Positions 3,834 to 21,471 of a stretch of DNA of 22,471 nucleotides are shown one piece after another (the first letter of the stretch is position 1; each line of letters opens with the position of its first letter). The notes beneath the pieces were generated by a model that saw only the letters and a program-made list of their open reading frames with translations, did no database searches and was not told the origin of the DNA. This stretch comes from a virus, in the IMG/VR virus record IMGVR_UViG_3300012147_000095, positions 1 to 22,471 of that record, one strand, 5' to 3'. Made by a program: the position numbers and the translations under genes.

Positions 3834-4481
3834 TTAAATGAAGTCTTTTAAGTCTGCAAAAGGAAAACAGCGAATTGCTGAGTCTCTATTTAGATTGAAA
3901 ATACCTTTGCGAATTTTTGAAATATTATTGAAGCCCGGAATCATCACAGTGTCGTATATATCAGTGCGTGTTTCTCTTCGGTGGTCTTTATGCCACTGGG
4001 CTTGTTTCGTTTTTGAGTTTAAGTCGTAGCCTATAAGGATCAACTGTTTATAGCCTACCTGATGGGCAATATTTATAAGCTGATGACCAGCGTTTGATCC
4101 TTCGATTGTGCCTACAGTCTCTGAAAGACTGGCAGATTCTTTACCTTTAGTTTTACAAACAAAAGGCGTGACTCTAGGATATTTATTCCAGTATTGTATA
4201 TTAGCCTTACACCCCATGCTTATATAGCCATCAAAAGAGTTTTCTACATCGTGTTCTTTATCTGTATGCCATTCCCACCAAATTTGATCTGTAAAATGTA
4301 AAAGAATCGCATTAGGGAATAGTTTATATGCATTGTTTGTTACATATACGTCATGTTGTGTAAGGATAGAAGAGTCTGGGATAAGCTTAGTGACACTGGG
4401 CCCGCCGCCTATGAGAAAGCAAGAGTCTGAACCCTTGCTTTCTTTTAGATTATTAATAAGTTTAAGCTTTGAGTCTGTCAT
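3834..4481 (-). CDS. DUF115 / MptE-like or sialyltransferase-fold protein
   Basis: About 215 residues from ATG 4481; an upstream in-frame GTG at 4496 would add five residues but has its purine-rich site too close. The key motif is FLIGGGPSV near the N-terminus, a nucleotide-binding loop shared by DUF115 (MptE-like) proteins and GT42-type sialyltransferases. Next come VYVTNNAY, a DQIWWEWH segment and a late TIEGSNAGHQLINIA-QLILIGYDL stretch matching the second half of that fold. The role could be sugar transfer, possibly to DNA, virion or cell surface, but no substrate is evident. It overlaps the upstream DsbA-like gene by about 20 bases. Confidence 0.62.
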   Translation of the reverse strand: MTDSKLKLINNLKESKGSDSCFLIGGGPSVTKLIPDSSILTQHDVYVTNNAYKLFPNAILLHFTDQIWWEWHTDKEHDVENSFDGYISMGCKANIQYWNKYPRVTPFVCKTKGKESASLSETVGTIEGSNAGHQLINIAHQVGYKQLILIGYDLNSKTKQAQWHKDHRRETRTDIYDTVMIPGFNNISKIRKGIFNLNRDSAIRCFPFADLKDFI

Positions 4482-4764
4482 AGAGTAGTTCGACACCTTC
4501 TTGTTGCACTTGCATCTCCGCGAGTTTTTCAGGCGATTTCATAATCTTTGCGACTGCGCGTGAGACTTTTGGATGAATGCCGTGAGACTCTTTTAATTCT
4601 TTAAGCACATCTTTGATAAGCTCGCGCTCTGTGTCAATAGACTCTAGGCTTGCAACGATATTATTCAAGCGGTCTTTAATAGCCTGAATTTCATTGTTCT
4701 TAGAGTTTTTAACTGTTTTAGTTGGGGCTGTGTCGTTTAGAAAGTTTTCTACTGCGTTACTCAT
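4462..4764 (-). CDS. DsbA-like small double-stranded-DNA-binding protein
   Basis: A 100-residue, mostly helical, charged protein. Its C-terminal half (ELKESHGIHPKVSRAVAKIM then a VELLYDRL end) resembles T4 DsbA, an 89-residue protein that binds late promoter regions. It also resembles the GapR/DUF2312 helical fold. The N-terminal 25 residues are Asn/Thr-rich and look disordered. A strong sigma70-like promoter at 4800-4828 and AAGGAAA upstream of ATG 4764 suggest it heads an early or constitutive leftward transcript. The DNA-binding role is inferred from the family. Confidence 0.66.
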   Translation of the reverse strand: MSNAVENFLNDTAPTKTVKNSKNNEIQAIKDRLNNIVASLESIDTERELIKDVLKELKESHGIHPKVSRAVAKIMKSPEKLAEMQVQQEGVELLYDRLKA

Positions 4765-12443: not shown

Positions 12444-12963
12444 TTTCTGCCATAATCCTATCTAATGATACAGGAAAATAGTCTGTATTCTCCAATGAAA
12501 CATTTACATATCGCGCATCGTCAAGTGTCTTAGAGTGTACGTGACCGTGGATATTTTTATCAAAACGCTCTTCAAGTTGTGATGAGTGTATGGGAATATG
12601 TGAAACAATGACTCGTTCTTTAAACAACTCTTCATATGCCAAAATTTTATCAAAGTGGTCTTCGAAGCCCAGCCGCTTTGCGTTTGTGTCATGATTGCCT
12701 AGAATAAGTCTTTTCTTTCCTTTAAACCTATCAAGAATGGTGTAATCAAACTTAAATGATGGGTCATCACCGGGCGCTAACCATACGTCACCTAAAAACC
12801 ATACAATATCATTATCCTTCACCAGACTGTTATGATTGTCGATGATCGTTTCGTTATGCTCTTCAATAGTCTCAAATGGACGATGCATAAAGCCTTCTTC
12901 AGACTTGTTAATCAGCTTCTTATGGAAAAGATGGTGATCGCTTGCAAAATATATATTTCTCAT
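12436..12963 (-). CDS. Calcineurin-like metallophosphoesterase
   Basis: A 175-residue two-metal phosphoesterase. Motifs in order are SDHHLFH (9-15; the family usually has D-x-H), GDVW, GNHD, a catalytic His in IVSHIPIHS and GHVHS near 139-143. Small phage members act on nucleotides, RNA ends or 2',3'-cyclic phosphates; the substrate cannot be read here. A promoter at 12992-13020 lies just upstream of ATG 12963. An AAAGAAAG site precedes the ATG. Confidence 0.86.
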   Translation of the reverse strand: MRNIYFASDHHLFHKKLINKSEEGFMHRPFETIEEHNETIIDNHNSLVKDNDIVWFLGDVWLAPGDDPSFKFDYTILDRFKGKKRLILGNHDTNAKRLGFEDHFDKILAYEELFKERVIVSHIPIHSSQLEERFDKNIHGHVHSKTLDDARYVNVSLENTDYFPVSLDRIMAENV

Positions 12964-12982
12964 TGTGTATCTTTCTTTATTT

Positions 12983-12990
12983 TATAAATA
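12983..12990 (+). promoter_or_regulatory. T4-type late promoter for the rightward 13026 gene
   Basis: TATAAATA on the plus strand, about 36 bases before ATG 13026, with start predicted near 12996. It lies within the intergenic region shared with the opposite sigma70-like promoter. Confidence 0.5.
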
Positions 12991-12991
12991 T

Positions 12992-13020
12992 ATTATATCT
13001 TATAATTAATAGTCTGTCAA
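12992..13020 (-). promoter_or_regulatory. Sigma70-like promoter for the phosphoesterase-ATPase operon
   Basis: On the minus strand, TTGACA (13020-13015), a 17-bp spacer and TATAAT (12997-12992), both hexamers perfect. Start near 12985, about 22 nt before ATG 12963. Confidence 0.78.
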
Positions 13021-13025
13021 GTAAA

Positions 13026-13439
13026 ATGAAAATAGTATCCTTTAGAGAATTTTTAGTCGGTTGTGATGCCAATAAAGAAGTATCAAAATCAGACTTATCG
13101 AAACTTGAAAAATACCTAGATCAAGTCTGGGGTATGCTGGGTGTTGATGTTGAATTTTCAAGACACTTTCTTGATAGAATTAATGACACTAGAAACAATA
13201 GACAAATTACGGTATGTGAAGTTCAGAAACTGTTTCTCGACACTTATAAAAAATATGGTCCTGCTATTAAAAAGATGAAAAATCTTGAAGCAGTCTTAAC
13301 AGACTTGAAGACTGATGTAAATGTTCCCTTTGCTTTAAAACTTGACCGCAGGGGCGATCTTGAATTAGTAGCCAAGACTGTTATGCGTAAAAAGTCTTTT
13401 GTGCCTAATAGCAAAGATGAAAAACACTTTAAAGTCTAA
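13026..13439 (+). CDS. Conserved marine-phage protein of unknown role, rightward
   Basis: 137 residues from ATG 13026; an open frame continues upstream to 12942 but its 28 extra residues come from the promoter region. It has a conserved-looking core FSRHFLDRINDTRNNRQIT, then VPFALKLDRRGDLELVAKTVMRKKSF. The H-F-L-D-R pattern and late beta strands recall RelE/BrnT-type folds, but that is weak. Related proteins are familiar from T4-like marine phages without a known function. It shares an intergenic region with the phosphoesterase and overlaps the next minus-strand gene by 4 bases at its 3' end. Confidence 0.7.
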   Translation: MKIVSFREFLVGCDANKEVSKSDLSKLEKYLDQVWGMLGVDVEFSRHFLDRINDTRNNRQITVCEVQKLFLDTYKKYGPAIKKMKNLEAVLTDLKTDVNVPFALKLDRRGDLELVAKTVMRKKSFVPNSKDEKHFKV

Positions 13440-14056: not shown

Positions 14057-14204
14057 ATCCACCTTCTAATAATGTTTTTGCAAGCCTTTTAAAGCCTGAT
14101 AAAGATGCCGCCCGTGAATTAAGTTTAAAATAGTTCCCATCGACATATACAGTATGGTACAACTTTGCGGCAAGCTTGTCAATATCTTTTTGTGTTATAT
14201 TCAT
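14034..14204 (-). CDS. Small unknown protein (56 aa)
   Basis: A short gene read from ATG 14204, which overlaps the stop of the CCA-adding enzyme gene (ATGA junction). The protein begins MNITQKDIDKLAAKLYH and contains YFKLNSRAASLSGFKRLAKTLL; it is basic, mostly helical and unrecognised. The 4-base overlap upstream and the in-line ribosome site for the next gene inside its end make it a credible coupled gene. Confidence 0.6.
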   Translation of the reverse strand: MNITQKDIDKLAAKLYHTVYVDGNYFKLNSRAASLSGFKRLAKTLLEGGYDANNGV

Positions 14205-15367
14205 TTTACATCAATTCTTTCTAATAATTGTTTTTTGGTGAATGTATATCTACTCGTTTTCCATAGATATTTTAGGTGTTTAAGCGCGTTTCCTAATTCT
14301 TGACCCTCTACATATCCAATTTCTTTTAAGTCTAAGCCTGAAATCGGAAAAGGCTTCATAGTAGACTGAATATGGTCCATATGTTCGACCAGATGTTTGT
14401 TATGAAAATACTCACACGCCGCTTCGATAATATCAACATGCATTCCCTCGTAGACTAAGTCTGTGACAACACTACTATTAAAAGAGTCTTGCGTATAGTC
14501 TTGTGTCAGATAAAGAAAGTCTAACCCAAACTCTTTCTCATGATTTGACAGTTTATAAGCCTTACAGAATTTTGTATAGTTGCGCGAGTTGCCATACAAG
14601 CACGCCATGACAATTGACGGATATGCTTCTATAGTATGTGTAGATAGGTTTAAGATACGGCTATTTTTTAAAACTGGTAAACCAAGTGTGTAAGATATAT
14701 CCAATTCTTGACATATTGCCAGAAAACATGATGCATTCTCTGGATTATCCTCAAAGACTTTAGTAAATTCTTGCCAGACTCTTTCTACAGATACTTCGGC
14801 AATTAATGAGGCATATTTCTTAACAGCCTTCATAGAGGCTTTATCATACTCTCCACCAGAAAACTTACATAGCATACGCACGTAGCGCAAAAGACGTAAA
14901 GAGTCTTCTCTAATTCTGCGCTCAGGATCGCCAACAAAGACCACTTTTTTATCTCTAAGGTCTTTCAAGCCTTCATAGGGATCAATCAACTCTCCGAGGT
15001 GTGACATATACATTGCATTGAAAGTAAAGTCTCTACGCGAAGCGTCTACATATACATTATTGGTATATTTAACTTCAGCGTGACGACCATCGCAATTTTC
15101 ATCATATCGAAAAGTTGTAATCTCATAAGACGCTGGAAAATCATAGTGATAAAGAGTAACCGTACCATGCTCTATACCAGTCTCTATGACATTCCACTCA
15201 GTATCTTTAAAGAGTGCAAGTGTCTCTTCAGGTGTAGCATCGGTTGCAAAGTCGTAATCTTTTGGTTTGGTATTATTACACATATCGCGTACTGCGCCAC
15301 CACACAACAAAAGTTGGTAATCAGCCTTGTTATAGACTTCATATAGAGTCGTAAAAGCTTTGTTCAT
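14201..15367 (-). CDS. cca: CCA-adding enzyme (tRNA nucleotidyltransferase, class II)
   Basis: A 388-residue enzyme. It has the nucleotidyltransferase signature LLCGGAVRD (20-28), catalytic DYDFAT (37-42), a third carboxylate-containing RRDFTFNAMY, and the RIREDSLRLLRYVRM template motif near 160. The length is usual for bacterial CCA or poly(A) polymerases of this class. It adds or repairs the 3' CCA of tRNAs; a poly(A) polymerase role is the alternative. It lies in the same gene run as a peptidyl-tRNA hydrolase, GroES and a D-armless tRNA-Gly, which suggests phage control of tRNA quality. It has an AAAGAG ribosome site. Confidence 0.9.
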   Translation of the reverse strand: MNKAFTTLYEVYNKADYQLLLCGGAVRDMCNNTKPKDYDFATDATPEETLALFKDTEWNVIETGIEHGTVTLYHYDFPASYEITTFRYDENCDGRHAEVKYTNNVYVDASRRDFTFNAMYMSHLGELIDPYEGLKDLRDKKVVFVGDPERRIREDSLRLLRYVRMLCKFSGGEYDKASMKAVKKYASLIAEVSVERVWQEFTKVFEDNPENASCFLAICQELDISYTLGLPVLKNSRILNLSTHTIEAYPSIVMACLYGNSRNYTKFCKAYKLSNHEKEFGLDFLYLTQDYTQDSFNSSVVTDLVYEGMHVDIIEAACEYFHNKHLVEHMDHIQSTMKPFPISGLDLKEIGYVEGQELGNALKHLKYLWKTSRYTFTKKQLLERIDVK

Positions 15368-15382
15368 AATGTAATCTCTTTC

Positions 15383-15832
15383 TTATGGATATAGATTAAA
15401 ACTATCTAGTGCTGAAGTGAAAATAGTATCGTTTCTATCTTCGGCAAAAACCCACATACAGGTTATTAAGGGAATTAAATGTGTTACTTGACCATCGCGG
15501 ACTGGATAAGTATCGTCTACGATAATACCACTATTTTTTTGAAAGAACAAGAACCTTTCGTTTAAATTTAAAATAGTTTTTTCATCTATACCATCGAGAA
15601 TAATCGTTGTTCCGAAAGTTCTTGCTTCAGACTCATTTAACCATTCATTATACTGATATAGTGTATCTACGTGTTCGTCACTGTCATTAATTTCCTGAAT
15701 AGAATTAAGTCTATCCATAGTCGCCGTAAAATCATTAGCCGCGTGACAGCACTGCGCCGCAAGCTTTCCAGCATTCATAGAAGCTAAATCACTTCGCGCA
15801 AGGATATATAAGACTGGTTGTGTATCCATCAT
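15383..15832 (-). CDS. Peptidyl-tRNA hydrolase 2 (Pth2)-like protein
   Basis: A 149-residue protein. It begins VLYILARSDLASMNAGKLAAQCCHAA, matching the Pth2 core (R-x-D-L, G-K-x-A-A-Q, then Ala/His). It ends with a strand pattern GIIVDDTYPVRDGQ-THLIPLITCMWVF like the Pth2 D-x-x-x-T-x-x-x-x-G-T region. Pth2 releases peptides from stalled peptidyl-tRNA and is mostly archaeal and eukaryotic, so a phage copy is notable. Some Pth2 catalytic details are changed here, so activity is inferred. It overlaps the groES-like gene by 4 bases. Confidence 0.8.
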   Translation of the reverse strand: MMDTQPVLYILARSDLASMNAGKLAAQCCHAANDFTATMDRLNSIQEINDSDEHVDTLYQYNEWLNESEARTFGTTIILDGIDEKTILNLNERFLFFQKNSGIIVDDTYPVRDGQVTHLIPLITCMWVFAEDRNDTIFTSALDSFNLYP

Positions 15833-16113
15833 TCAAAAACTCCTATAACGCAAGTCTCTTTTGTAATGGCATATTCTTCTTCTGAATTGAAGTCTTCGTG
15901 TTTAAGTGGCTTAAACTCTCCATTTTCAACTAGAATATAGTCGCCTACCTTACAATGTTCTACAAGACTGCCTACAGCCAGCACAAGCATCTTTTGGCTT
16001 CGTGTCTTTTTTTGATTTGGCAGTAGAATACCGCCTTTGCTAGTCTCTGTAACAGGCGCAAGTTTAACTAAAATATGGTTCGTCACAGGCTTGAAATAGT
16101 CTTCAGCTTTCAT
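15829..16113 (-). CDS. GroES/gp31-like co-chaperonin
   Basis: A 94-residue protein (GroES is 97). It has PVTNHILVKL, then the mobile-loop region TSKGGILLPN (24-33), then LAVG, VGDYILVENGEF and a final CVIGVFE that matches the GroES C-terminal strand. T4 gp31 replaces host GroES to fold the large major capsid protein gp23, and the same role is likely. It begins 22 bases after the tRNA-Gly 3' end. Confidence 0.88.
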   Translation of the reverse strand: MKAEDYFKPVTNHILVKLAPVTETSKGGILLPNQKKTRSQKMLVLAVGSLVEHCKVGDYILVENGEFKPLKHEDFNSEEEYAITKETCVIGVFE

Positions 16114-16134: not shown

Positions 16135-16200
16135 TGGAGCGTCATAAGAGATTCGAACTCTTACTTATTGAGTGGAAGTCAAACAAAACACTTATAACGC
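16135..16200 (-). tRNA. tRNA-Gly(UCC)-like RNA lacking a D arm
   Basis: The acceptor stem GCGTTAT (16200-16194) pairs with ATGACGC (16145-16139), followed by discriminator U and encoded CCA (16135-16137). The anticodon stem TTTGA/TCAAT has one T-T mismatch and a 7-nt loop C-T-T-C-C-A-C with anticodon UCC. The T arm is canonical (AAGAG-TTCGAAT-CTCTT). U73 with G1-C72, C2-G71 and G3-C70 fits glycine identity. Only 10 nt (16193-16184) separate the acceptor and anticodon stems, too few for a D arm. It is therefore an unusual truncated tRNA; a decaying pseudo-tRNA is the alternative. Confidence 0.72.
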
Positions 16201-16206
16201 ATTAAT

Positions 16207-16371
16207 TTATGAGGGTGTAAAGTCTTTTTTGATAGAGGATACAAAAACATCTGCAAAGGTGCTAGATGGTTTAGGTGTAGGTTGTGTATGATACGTAAGT
16301 TCACCAGTCTTTAAATCCTGTGAAACAATCGGTTGTCCGATCATAAAGTCTAATTCTTTTCCTGTAAACAT
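16207..16371 (-). CDS. Small unknown protein (54 aa) between a late promoter and the tRNA
   Basis: Read from ATG 16371, the protein begins MFTGKELDFMIGQPIVS and has a Pro-rich middle (TQPTPKPSST) before a helical end. AGGAG lies in front of the ATG and a late promoter (16391-16398) ends about 20 bases upstream. No family is recognised. Its TAA lies 6 bases before the tRNA-Gly 5' end, so both are probably on one transcript. Confidence 0.66.
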   Translation of the reverse strand: MFTGKELDFMIGQPIVSQDLKTGELTYHTQPTPKPSSTFADVFVSSIKKDFTPS

Positions 16372-19067: not shown

Positions 19068-20021
19068 TTAAACTGGATACTTTTCTGAAGAATAATCATC
19101 AATAAGGACCATATTGGCATATTTTTTATCTTCATCTTTAAAGTCTTTGGCAGATTTACCATCTTTGTATATAAGCTTATTCACTTTAAATGAACTGAAG
19201 TTACATAGGTGATGCCATCTGTCATACTTCCATACAAGTTCACATACGTCTGGGTGCATATCCACAAGCATTTGAGACTTGTTAAGAGTGCCTAACTCAT
19301 GATACTTTTTACTTTTAAGCAAGGCTTTTTCATCTTCTGTGATATTCTCCGAATGATAAAACTCTTCGGTGTTGCCGCCCTTGACAGTCTGTGTCGCACA
19401 CTTCCCTTGAAGATAGAAATTGAACTCTATGGTACAGTCTCCATCTTTAAGAACTCTCAATGATAAGTCTGTATCTTCATTATATCGCCCGCGCCATCTA
19501 TGCTTACAGTCGTTTCTAATCAAAAGAGTAGAATAGACTCTGGTGTTAAGGATAATTGGTGGTTTAACAACTCTACCTGTCAAAAAGAATCTGTACTGTA
19601 ATCCAGAAACGGGAACATTCTCAAATCTGTCTACAAACTCTTCACAGGCTTTGAATAATATACCAGACTCGACTCGCACTCTTTGATTATTATGCATTCT
19701 ATAGAAGTCTTGAATATTATCGTCAAGAATCCAATGACTGCCTGTATCCTTATTGGCAAGACACCAATCCCAAAAATAGTTTCTTGCCCTTCCGGGCCCA
19801 TCACCGTGATTAGAGAATGGCGCAATGATAAGTGTCGCGTAGTCTTTAAGATCAAAGTCTTTCAAAGCTTTGATATACAATTCTTCTTCTTGTGGTTCTA
19901 TAACAATATAATGTGGAATCTTCATTCTACGTAATGAACGAGATGTATACATAGACTCGTATCGACCCTTTGATATAATACCTACAGGATGTGTAGGCTG
20001 TGTAAAGACTCTATTCATCAT
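19068..20021 (-). CDS. TET-associated-type glycosyltransferase (TAGT-like)
   Basis: About 317 residues from ATG 20021, with GAGG six bases before it; a TTG at 20033 would add four. Features are SKGRYESMYTSRSLRRMKIPHYIVIEPQEE near the N-terminus, NHGDGPGRARNYFWDW, then WILDDNI with a DD pair (104-105, numbered from the TTG) and RYNEDTDLSLRVL (183-195). This order matches the GT-A-fold glycosyltransferases encoded beside phage TET/JBP-like dioxygenases, which glycosylate hydroxymethylpyrimidines in DNA. No dioxygenase is in this window. Metal-dependent sugar transfer to modified phage DNA is the likely role by family. Confidence 0.82.
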   Translation of the reverse strand: MMNRVFTQPTHPVGIISKGRYESMYTSRSLRRMKIPHYIVIEPQEEELYIKALKDFDLKDYATLIIAPFSNHGDGPGRARNYFWDWCLANKDTGSHWILDDNIQDFYRMHNNQRVRVESGILFKACEEFVDRFENVPVSGLQYRFFLTGRVVKPPIILNTRVYSTLLIRNDCKHRWRGRYNEDTDLSLRVLKDGDCTIEFNFYLQGKCATQTVKGGNTEEFYHSENITEDEKALLKSKKYHELGTLNKSQMLVDMHPDVCELVWKYDRWHHLCNFSSFKVNKLIYKDGKSAKDFKDEDKKYANMVLIDDYSSEKYPV

Positions 20022-20346
20022 CAGAAACCTCAATCCAGCGTAAGAGACTATTCTTAGTTTCGCTTCGTTTAGGATGCCAGATAATCTTTGTCTTGTCTGA
20101 CATTTTCTGACTAATTAGCTTTTGAAACTCATCAAAGTCTTCTTTACTGGCAAAGTTAATCTGTAATTTCTTATAAGGCTCTTCAGGCTTAATTACAAAC
20201 TCTGGCATACCTACCCAGTGTTTTTTCCACTCTTTATCAACTGTTTCATTCTTACCGAAGAGGTCATCCATAGGCGAAACTTTTTTGCCAATGAAATTGT
20301 CATAATCTTGCGATTCGGGTACAGGGGTATCATTGTCGTCTGACAT
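20011..20346 (-). CDS. Small conserved phage protein (MPEFV...KTKIIWHP family)
   Basis: A 111-residue protein. The N-terminal 40 residues are Asp-rich and look disordered. The C-terminal half has GMPEFVIKPEEPYKKLQINF, then QKMSDKTKIIWHP, a pattern familiar from phage proteins often encoded with ParB-like or DNA-modification genes. No catalytic motif is visible; a DNA-modification partner role is inferred from context only. AGAGGATTG precedes ATG 20346. It overlaps the glycosyltransferase by about 11 bases. Confidence 0.72.
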   Translation of the reverse strand: MSDDNDTPVPESQDYDNFIGKKVSPMDDLFGKNETVDKEWKKHWVGMPEFVIKPEEPYKKLQINFASKEDFDEFQKLISQKMSDKTKIIWHPKRSETKNSLLRWIEVSDDE

Positions 20347-20375: not shown

Positions 20376-20483
20376 TTAGATAAGTATGATTATTAGTATA
20401 ATAATAGGTATTATAAGTGGAATTAGAACAATATACAAGTCTTTATTAGACTCTTTAGATTTTCTCTGAGCATTCCGCATCAT
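20376..20483 (-). CDS. Very small membrane protein (about 35 aa)
   Basis: Read from ATG 20483 (or the adjacent ATG 20480). A polar Lys-rich first 18 residues precede an almost pure Ile/Leu segment, YIVLIPLIIPIIILIIILI, to the end. AAAGAAG lies close upstream. It overlaps the 3' end of the ParB-like gene by 29 bases and fills most of the gap before the 20346 gene. A holin-like or regulatory peptide is possible; chance AT-rich translation cannot be excluded. Confidence 0.45.
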   Translation of the reverse strand: MMRNAQRKSKESNKDLYIVLIPLIIPIIILIIILI

Positions 20484-21471
20484 AAGCTTCTTTAAGTATT
20501 CGATTACCCGTTGCGTGCATACCGCGCAATCCTGCAATATGGTCTGGCAGTGGTACGTTTTCCATAGACTCAAAAGCAAAAACACGCCCGTTAATTCTCG
20601 AAAAGAATTTGCCTAATGCTTGTCCAAACTTTGCCTTGCCTACAACTTCAATCTTATTCATTCCCGGCCAAGCTGTATCACGCTTAGATGTACCGATAAG
20701 CATAGCGTCTTTTTTATGCGGTACATATAGAATAGAGTCTTGATCGTATTTTGCGCCAAGTCTTCGTAAGTCTTGCTTAAGAGTTCCGGACTTTTTATGG
20801 TCTGCCACGAAGAACGAGACTTCGCCTACTTCTTTTTCTTTTGGCGTACCTAGATTTTCAATATATGATCCTTTAACCTGTGTAACAGAGTAACCGCGCG
20901 TAAGCAAAGCCGCGAGAAGTTCTTTTGTTCTGGTCATATTCTCCGAACGCTTAAACTCTCCACGAAAGGCTGAGATAGACCCTACATCATAGGCTTCGAT
21001 CTTAGTCCACAATCTTGATAGTGATGATTCCATAATGTATGATTCTTTATACTCTACTTGTTTAAAGTCTTTGAATAGCTTTATAAGCTTATCAAAATCC
21101 ATATCTATCCTCATAACTATAGCAGACTTTTTCAGATATTGCAAGCTAATAATGCGATGATTGCCATCTAATACATAATTATCTTTGGTGATATAGACGA
21201 TCTTATTCTTAACCTTGTCTATATTCTTTACCAAGGCTTCGATTTTATCTTTATGAAAGTTAGCTTGGGCGAATTTAAGTTTAAGACTGTCTACAGTCTC
21301 TTTCTTATATTTTACGCCATTCTCATCAAGAAAAGCAAGAATATTTTTAGTATTCTTCTCTGTAAGTTGCGGCATATTAAGTCTGGAAATATTTTTAGAC
21401 GATCTCTTAGCTGAAAGCATAAGTTCATCAATACTACCAGACTCTTTAATATATTCTTTAAATGATTTCAT
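20455..21471 (-). CDS. ParB/Srx-like plus DUF3293-like protein
   Basis: A 338-residue protein. It starts MKSFKEYIKES, a motif common at the N-terminus of marine T4-like phage proteins. Residues about 90-115 (ITKDNYVLDGNHRIISLQYL) match the ParB/Srx motif with D-G-N-H-R. After a linker, FRGEFKRSENMTRTKELLA, YSVTQVKGSYIEN and VGEVSFFVADHK (about 170-225) resemble a DUF3293-type nuclease-like domain. The combination suggests a DNA- or nucleotide-handling enzyme, inferred from domains. AAATAAGACT precedes ATG 21471. It lies just upstream of the DNA-modification genes. Confidence 0.72.
   Translation of the reverse strand: MKSFKEYIKESGSIDELMLSAKRSSKNISRLNMPQLTEKNTKNILAFLDENGVKYKKETVDSLKLKFAQANFHKDKIEALVKNIDKVKNKIVYITKDNYVLDGNHRIISLQYLKKSAIVMRIDMDFDKLIKLFKDFKQVEYKESYIMESSLSRLWTKIEAYDVGSISAFRGEFKRSENMTRTKELLAALLTRGYSVTQVKGSYIENLGTPKEKEVGEVSFFVADHKKSGTLKQDLRRLGAKYDQDSILYVPHKKDAMLIGTSKRDTAWPGMNKIEVVGKAKFGQALGKFFSRINGRVFAFESMENVPLPDHIAGLRGMHATGNRILKEAYDAECSEKI

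Follow-up and report, generated by a model that had tools for sequence, protein, structure and literature searches.

A D-Armless tRNA-Gly(UCC)-Like Element in a Marine-Type T4-Like Phage: Probably a Recently Decayed tRNA Gene

The Locus and Its Surroundings

The window, that is the whole stretch of DNA analysed, is a virus record of 22,471 bases from a marine-type T4-like phage, with a UvsW-like helicase, PhoH and a tail tube protein. The nearest named UvsW, with 42% identity, is that of Pelagibacter phage Mosig. On the minus strand, a short tRNA-like element is located within a run of genes in the order 54-aa ORF, tRNA element, GroES-like gene, PTH2 and tRNA nucleotidyltransferase, with 6 nt separating the element from the ORF before it and 21 nt from the gene after it. 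The genes and the element are as follows.

16207–16371, minus strand: 54-aa ORF, with its stop codon 6 nt upstream
16135–16200, minus strand: D-armless tRNA-Gly(UCC)-like element of 66 nt, CCA included (Rfam RF00005 and sequence)
15829–16113, minus strand: GroES/Cpn10-like co-chaperonin gene (Pfam PF00166, 2.5e-11; phrog_3188); its start lies 21 nt downstream of the CCA
15383–15832, minus strand: PTH2-type peptidyl-tRNA hydrolase (Pfam PF01981, 1.4e-8)
14201–15367, minus strand: tRNA nucleotidyltransferase, CCA-adding enzyme family (Pfam PF01743, 1e-30; phrog_2244, 1.6e-52)

An alphaproteobacterial host appears plausible, since the relatives of the PTH2 protein are found in phages of alphaproteobacteria. 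One of these relatives, Ruegeria phage RpAliso, carries a large tRNA-gene cluster near its PTH2, and the 31-kb sister contig of the window described below has no tRNA besides the element. The arrangement would be consistent with a block of genes for tRNA metabolism that has kept few of its tRNAs in the window phage. The GroES-like protein (PF00166) is divergent, and tblastn finds no relative of it in 50,697 phage records.

Elsewhere in the window, the C-terminal part of a minus-strand protein (20455–21471) matches a SAM lyase family (PF23780, 3.2e-15, residues 166–279), while its N-terminal half looks ParB-type-like by eye. SAM lyases are known anti-restriction enzymes. A TET-associated glycosyltransferase (19068–20033, minus strand; PF20691, 6.5e-36) suggests hypermodified phage DNA, and the protein at 3834–4496 on the minus strand matches the phage “alpha-2,3-sialyltransferase” family phrog_4603 (3.5e-26). 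The Mosig genome has a tmRNA (SsrA) gene annotated at positions 1707–2045.

Structure of the Element

Read along the minus strand from 16200 to 16135, the sequence is GCGTTAT-AAGTGTTTTG-TTTGA-CTTCCAC-TCAAT-AAGT-AAGAG-TTCGAAT-CTCTT-ATGACGC-T-CCA, and it divides into the following parts.

16194–16200, minus strand: 5′ strand of the acceptor stem, GCGTTAT, pairing 7/7 with 16139–16145 (sequence and Rfam alignment)
16184–16193, minus strand: 10-nt connector AAGTGTTTTG, replacing nucleotides 8–9, the D arm and nucleotide 26 (15–22 nt in about 425 other tRNAs)
16167–16183, minus strand: anticodon arm TTTGA-CTTCCAC-TCAAT, with anticodon TCC at 16174–16176 and U-U at pair 27–43
16163–16166, minus strand: variable loop AAGT (sequence)
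16146–16162, minus strand: T arm AAGAG-TTCGAAT-CTCTT, pairing 5/5 (sequence and Rfam alignment)
16135–16145, minus strand: 3′ strand of the acceptor stem, ATGACGC, with discriminator U73 (16138) and encoded CCA (16135–16137)

The initial annotation had placed a phage tRNA-Gly(UCC) sequence lacking the D arm at this site, and its coordinates, strand and 10-nt connector are all correct. The connector forms no hairpin and contains no GG, so the element is not a four-arm cloverleaf with G18–G19. The remaining parts had been described as intact, which is true of the acceptor stem (7/7, one pair being U5-G68), the T stem (5/5), U73 and the CCA. The anticodon arm is imperfect: because of the U-U at 27–43 its stem has only 4 bp, and the Rfam alignment flags the same pair as non-standard. 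The identity determinants of bacterial glycyl-tRNA synthetase (GlyRS), namely G1-C72, C2-G71, U73, C35 and C36 (PMC9976931), are all present in the sequence.

Authenticity and Rarity

Rfam family RF00005 matches the element end to end with 37.8 bits (E 7.9e-5 over all families) against a gathering score of 29. The alignment covers model positions 1–71 and skips the D arm. The bacterial mode of ARAGORN gives no call at this site. In metazoan-mitochondrial mode the program calls the element Gly(tcc) beside eight spurious others, and a mode that makes nine calls in the window is too permissive for this call to be accepted as evidence.

A rule-based tRNA scan (acceptor stem 7/7, T stem 5/5, at least 4/5 anticodon stem pairs, U33) over 1.39 Mb of DNA, nearly all from viral contigs, yields about 425 distinct tRNA-like genes with connectors of 15–22 nt; a connector of 10 nt occurs in the window element alone. 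Three shuffles of the same 1.39 Mb give no match at any connector length; together with the Rfam score, this shows that the resemblance to a tRNA has not arisen by chance. A pattern scan for phage-type Gly(UCC) in 2.9 million viral contigs returns 70 stretches, among which the element is the only true short-connector case. Another stretch (L100) was considered as a second such case and rejected, having only five acceptor pairs and a misplaced 5′ end. Matches to the tRNA-Gly pattern in bacterial genomes are canonical Niastella tRNAs only, and the nearest GenBank sequences by blastn are tRNA-Gly genes of Vibrio, Pseudomonas and Klebsiella phages.

A second contig, IMGVR_UViG_3300035034_000409, carries an identical element and shares 99.85% identity with the window over 14 kb, with 15 mismatches and one 6-nt indel. 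The indel lies at window position 13011, near a plus-strand ORF (12942–13439), the additional GTCTGT being found only in the sister contig. The sequence comes from metagenome assembly only, and a true gene with a D arm might have been corrupted by assembly or sequencing error; this is very improbable, however, because the same element is shared by two contigs that differ in 15 bases and one 6-nt indel, and the junction has neither homopolymer nor repeat. The D-armless tRNA-derived sequence is real and rare.

Its distribution is narrow. When the locus was sought through five neighbouring proteins (the GroES-like protein, a Pyr_excise-family protein, the nucleotidyltransferase, the 54-aa ORF and PTH2) together with UvsW, only IMGVR_UViG_3300035034_000409 was found to share it. 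Other relatives, recognised by UvsW (36–44%) or the Pyr_excise-family protein (40–64%), have different gene neighbourhoods. A search pattern that includes GCGTTAT, the 5′ strand of the acceptor stem, matches 40 stretches, none of which is a tRNA except that of the sister contig. Beyond the window, these searches found the D-armless form in this near-identical contig only, and no divergent relative that shares the locus.

Comparison with normal tRNAs reveals further departures. GG is present in the D region of 423 of 428 comparison tRNAs and absent from the element. At position 8 the usual U is replaced by A, as in 27 of the 428, and pair 27–43, occupied by U-U, is unpaired in 33 of them; A8 and the unpaired 27–43 may be read as further signs of relaxed constraint. 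The canonical phage tRNA-Gly(UCC) (RF00005) shares with the element the acceptor stem, the GACTTCCA anticodon region, the T arm, U73 and CCA, whereas the element differs in the missing D arm (10 versus 15–22 nt), A8, the U-U at 27–43 and a predicted preference for a fold other than the cloverleaf. One comparison tRNA (L072) reads AAGTGTTTTAGGCGGCAT where the element reads AAGTGTTTT-G. In both, AAGTGTTTT opens the D region; the L072 tRNA continues with AGGCGGCAT, while the element jumps to G, which suggests that about 9 nt were lost from the element. No neighbouring proteins common to the L072 phage and the window phage were detected.

Predicted Folding

In ViennaRNA folding, which leaves out Mg2+, modifications and tertiary contacts, the minimum free energy structure of the element is a rod of −19.0 kcal/mol, against −9.6 kcal/mol for the three-arm form, a gap of 9.4 kcal/mol in disfavour of the tRNA-like arms.

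16139–16200, minus strand: predicted alternative rod, in which nucleotides 1–10 (16191–16200) pair with nucleotides 53–62 (16139–16148) and the T arm is destroyed

Within the rod, nucleotides 8–10 (AAG) pair with CUU, which belongs to the 3′ strand of the T stem, and so lengthen the acceptor helix. In human mitochondrial tRNA-Lys, an extended hairpin pairs positions 8–10 with 63–65. The gap in the element persists and widens at 15 and 25 °C. In 49 comparison tRNA-Gly genes, 47 from IMG/VR contigs and two from Niastella genomes, the cloverleaf is at most 3.0 kcal/mol above the minimum, and when their D arms are deleted in silico the same 49 remain within 3.7 kcal/mol. For mini HisT, an engineered D-armless tRNA rebuilt at its published 62 nt, the same test gives the three-arm form as the minimum.

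When the stems of the AU-rich design are re-dealt at random, the mean gap is 3.7 kcal/mol and 2.8% of the sequences reach 9.4. Since this fraction of re-dealt AU-rich D-armless sequences attains the same gap, the rod as a selected structure is unconvincing, and in these models it seems rather to follow from the weak pairing of an AU-rich design. Some real mitochondrial tRNAs fold as extended hairpins until they are modified (PMC5372732). Folding predicted without modifications is not proof, because in human mitochondrial tRNA-Lys the extended hairpin is resolved by m1A9 (PMC5372732). That tRNA resembles the element in that an extended hairpin competes with the cloverleaf; it differs in possessing a D arm and a known methyltransferase (m1A9) that resolves the misfold.

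Decay or Function

The element is best explained as a phage tRNA-Gly(UCC) gene that belongs to a translation-related operon and has decayed recently. To this reading we assign a probability of roughly two in three. A normal phage tRNA-Gly would have lost about 8–9 nt, comprising the part of the D loop with G18–G19 and the 3′ strand of the D stem. After this loss, the AAG at nucleotides 8–10 could pair with the CUU and extend the acceptor helix. The transcript would presumably be made within the operon mRNA, would misfold or be degraded by tRNA quality control, and would have no adaptor role; the element would persist because the deletion is young and gaps of such size are common in phages. The loss of the D arm, the mismatch at 27–43, A8 and a three-arm form predicted to be unstable are what is expected of a tRNA pseudogene. 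Decay is also favoured by the uniqueness of the element among about 425 tRNA-like genes and 70 Gly(UCC) stretches, by the rod, by the L072 comparison and by codon use, which gives no sign that the phage needs tRNA-Gly(UCC): GGA, with 20% of glycine codons in 26 window genes (GGG, 11%), is not the favoured one, and a codon-supply explanation is unsupported. In E. coli, moreover, a D-armless tRNA that can fold is still degraded via PNPase (PMC11551756).

Other features count against decay. An old pseudogene would no longer have its acceptor stem, T stem, T loop, anticodon, U73 and CCA all preserved, as they are in the element; the GlyRS determinants are retained, the neighbours are tRNA-metabolism genes, and in an AU-rich RNA that lacks a D arm a rod is no extreme rarity (2.8% of re-dealt stems). 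The initial annotation had taken the intact arms as an argument against decay. This argument fails, since the D arm can be lost through a single deletion of about 9 nt that does not affect the other parts. The element was also considered as the attP remnant of a temperate phage, which was rejected as its 5′ acceptor strand is present and fully paired; no integrase is named in Pfam and PHROGs scans of 15 window proteins.

We know of no natural non-organellar D-armless tRNA, and a working element would be the first. It is distinctly unlikely that host GlyRS charges such a tRNA-Gly(UCC) and that it decodes GGA and GGG during infection, its folding perhaps aided by modification or a protein; the more specific proposal of a working natural D-armless tRNA-Gly charged by a bacterial GlyRS through acceptor-stem and anticodon determinants is slightly more doubtful still. 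The retention of every arm but the D arm, with the UCC anticodon, U73 and CCA, is consistent with function, as is the presence in the operon of genes for tRNA nucleotidyltransferase and peptidyl-tRNA hydrolase. Bacterial GlyRS finds its main determinants in parts of the tRNA other than the D arm, although the Thermus thermophilus enzyme additionally reads G10 and U16 (PMC9976931). An artificial D-armless tRNA-His functions with E. coli machinery in vitro, being accepted by HisRS, EF-Tu and the ribosome in their unmodified form (PMC11551756). This mini HisT is like the element in length (62 versus 66 nt), three-arm design and bacterial translation setting; unlike the element it is designed, GC-rich and has a three-arm minimum, whereas the predicted rod of the element is better by 9.4 kcal/mol, and mini HisT needed a pnp mutation in vivo (PMC11551756). 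In D-armless animal mitochondrial tRNAs (tRNA-Ser(AGY), mite and nematode tRNAs), too, a short connector replaces the D arm and the other arms remain. These tRNAs are conserved, and they have been demonstrated to work with mitochondrial enzymes adapted to them, whereas the element belongs to a single phage lineage, has a longer connector and is known here from sequence alone. Conservation limited to one near-identical contig and the lack of an excess of GGA codons speak against function as well.

Retention as an RNA-processing or punctuation site is an unlikely, though somewhat better placed, alternative: RNase P and 3′ processing enzymes would cleave the acceptor–T helix and CCA, which stand between the 54-aa ORF and groES, with the tRNA body as a by-product. 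RNase P reads mainly the acceptor–T helix, both arms of which are fully kept, and the element fills the gap between these co-directional genes, beginning 6 nt after the stop of the ORF and ending 21 nt before the start of groES. The preferred rod, however, is predicted to destroy the T arm, no relatives conserve the element, and the other 70–230-nt gaps of the window, judged from ORF coordinates, contain no such elements. A decoy or nuclease-resistant tRNA countering a tRNA-cleaving host defence is hardly credible. In its favour, an altered tRNA body still carries the anticodon loop, and tRNA-targeting immunity exists (PMC12851939); yet no evidence of either role, no defence partner and no conservation were found, and in the predicted rod the anticodon loop is opened up.

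Significance

The interest of the element would be high only if it proved to be expressed and charged. The bacterial tRNAs known so far are stated to be cloverleaves without exception (PMC11551756); if the element works, this rule would be broken, and phages could supply minimal tRNAs to the bacterial ribosome. If it is a decayed gene, it would matter little in itself, yet it would indicate that one small deletion can strip a tRNA-Gly of its D arm while the gene continues to satisfy a tRNA covariance model. D-armless calls in phages therefore need a folding check.
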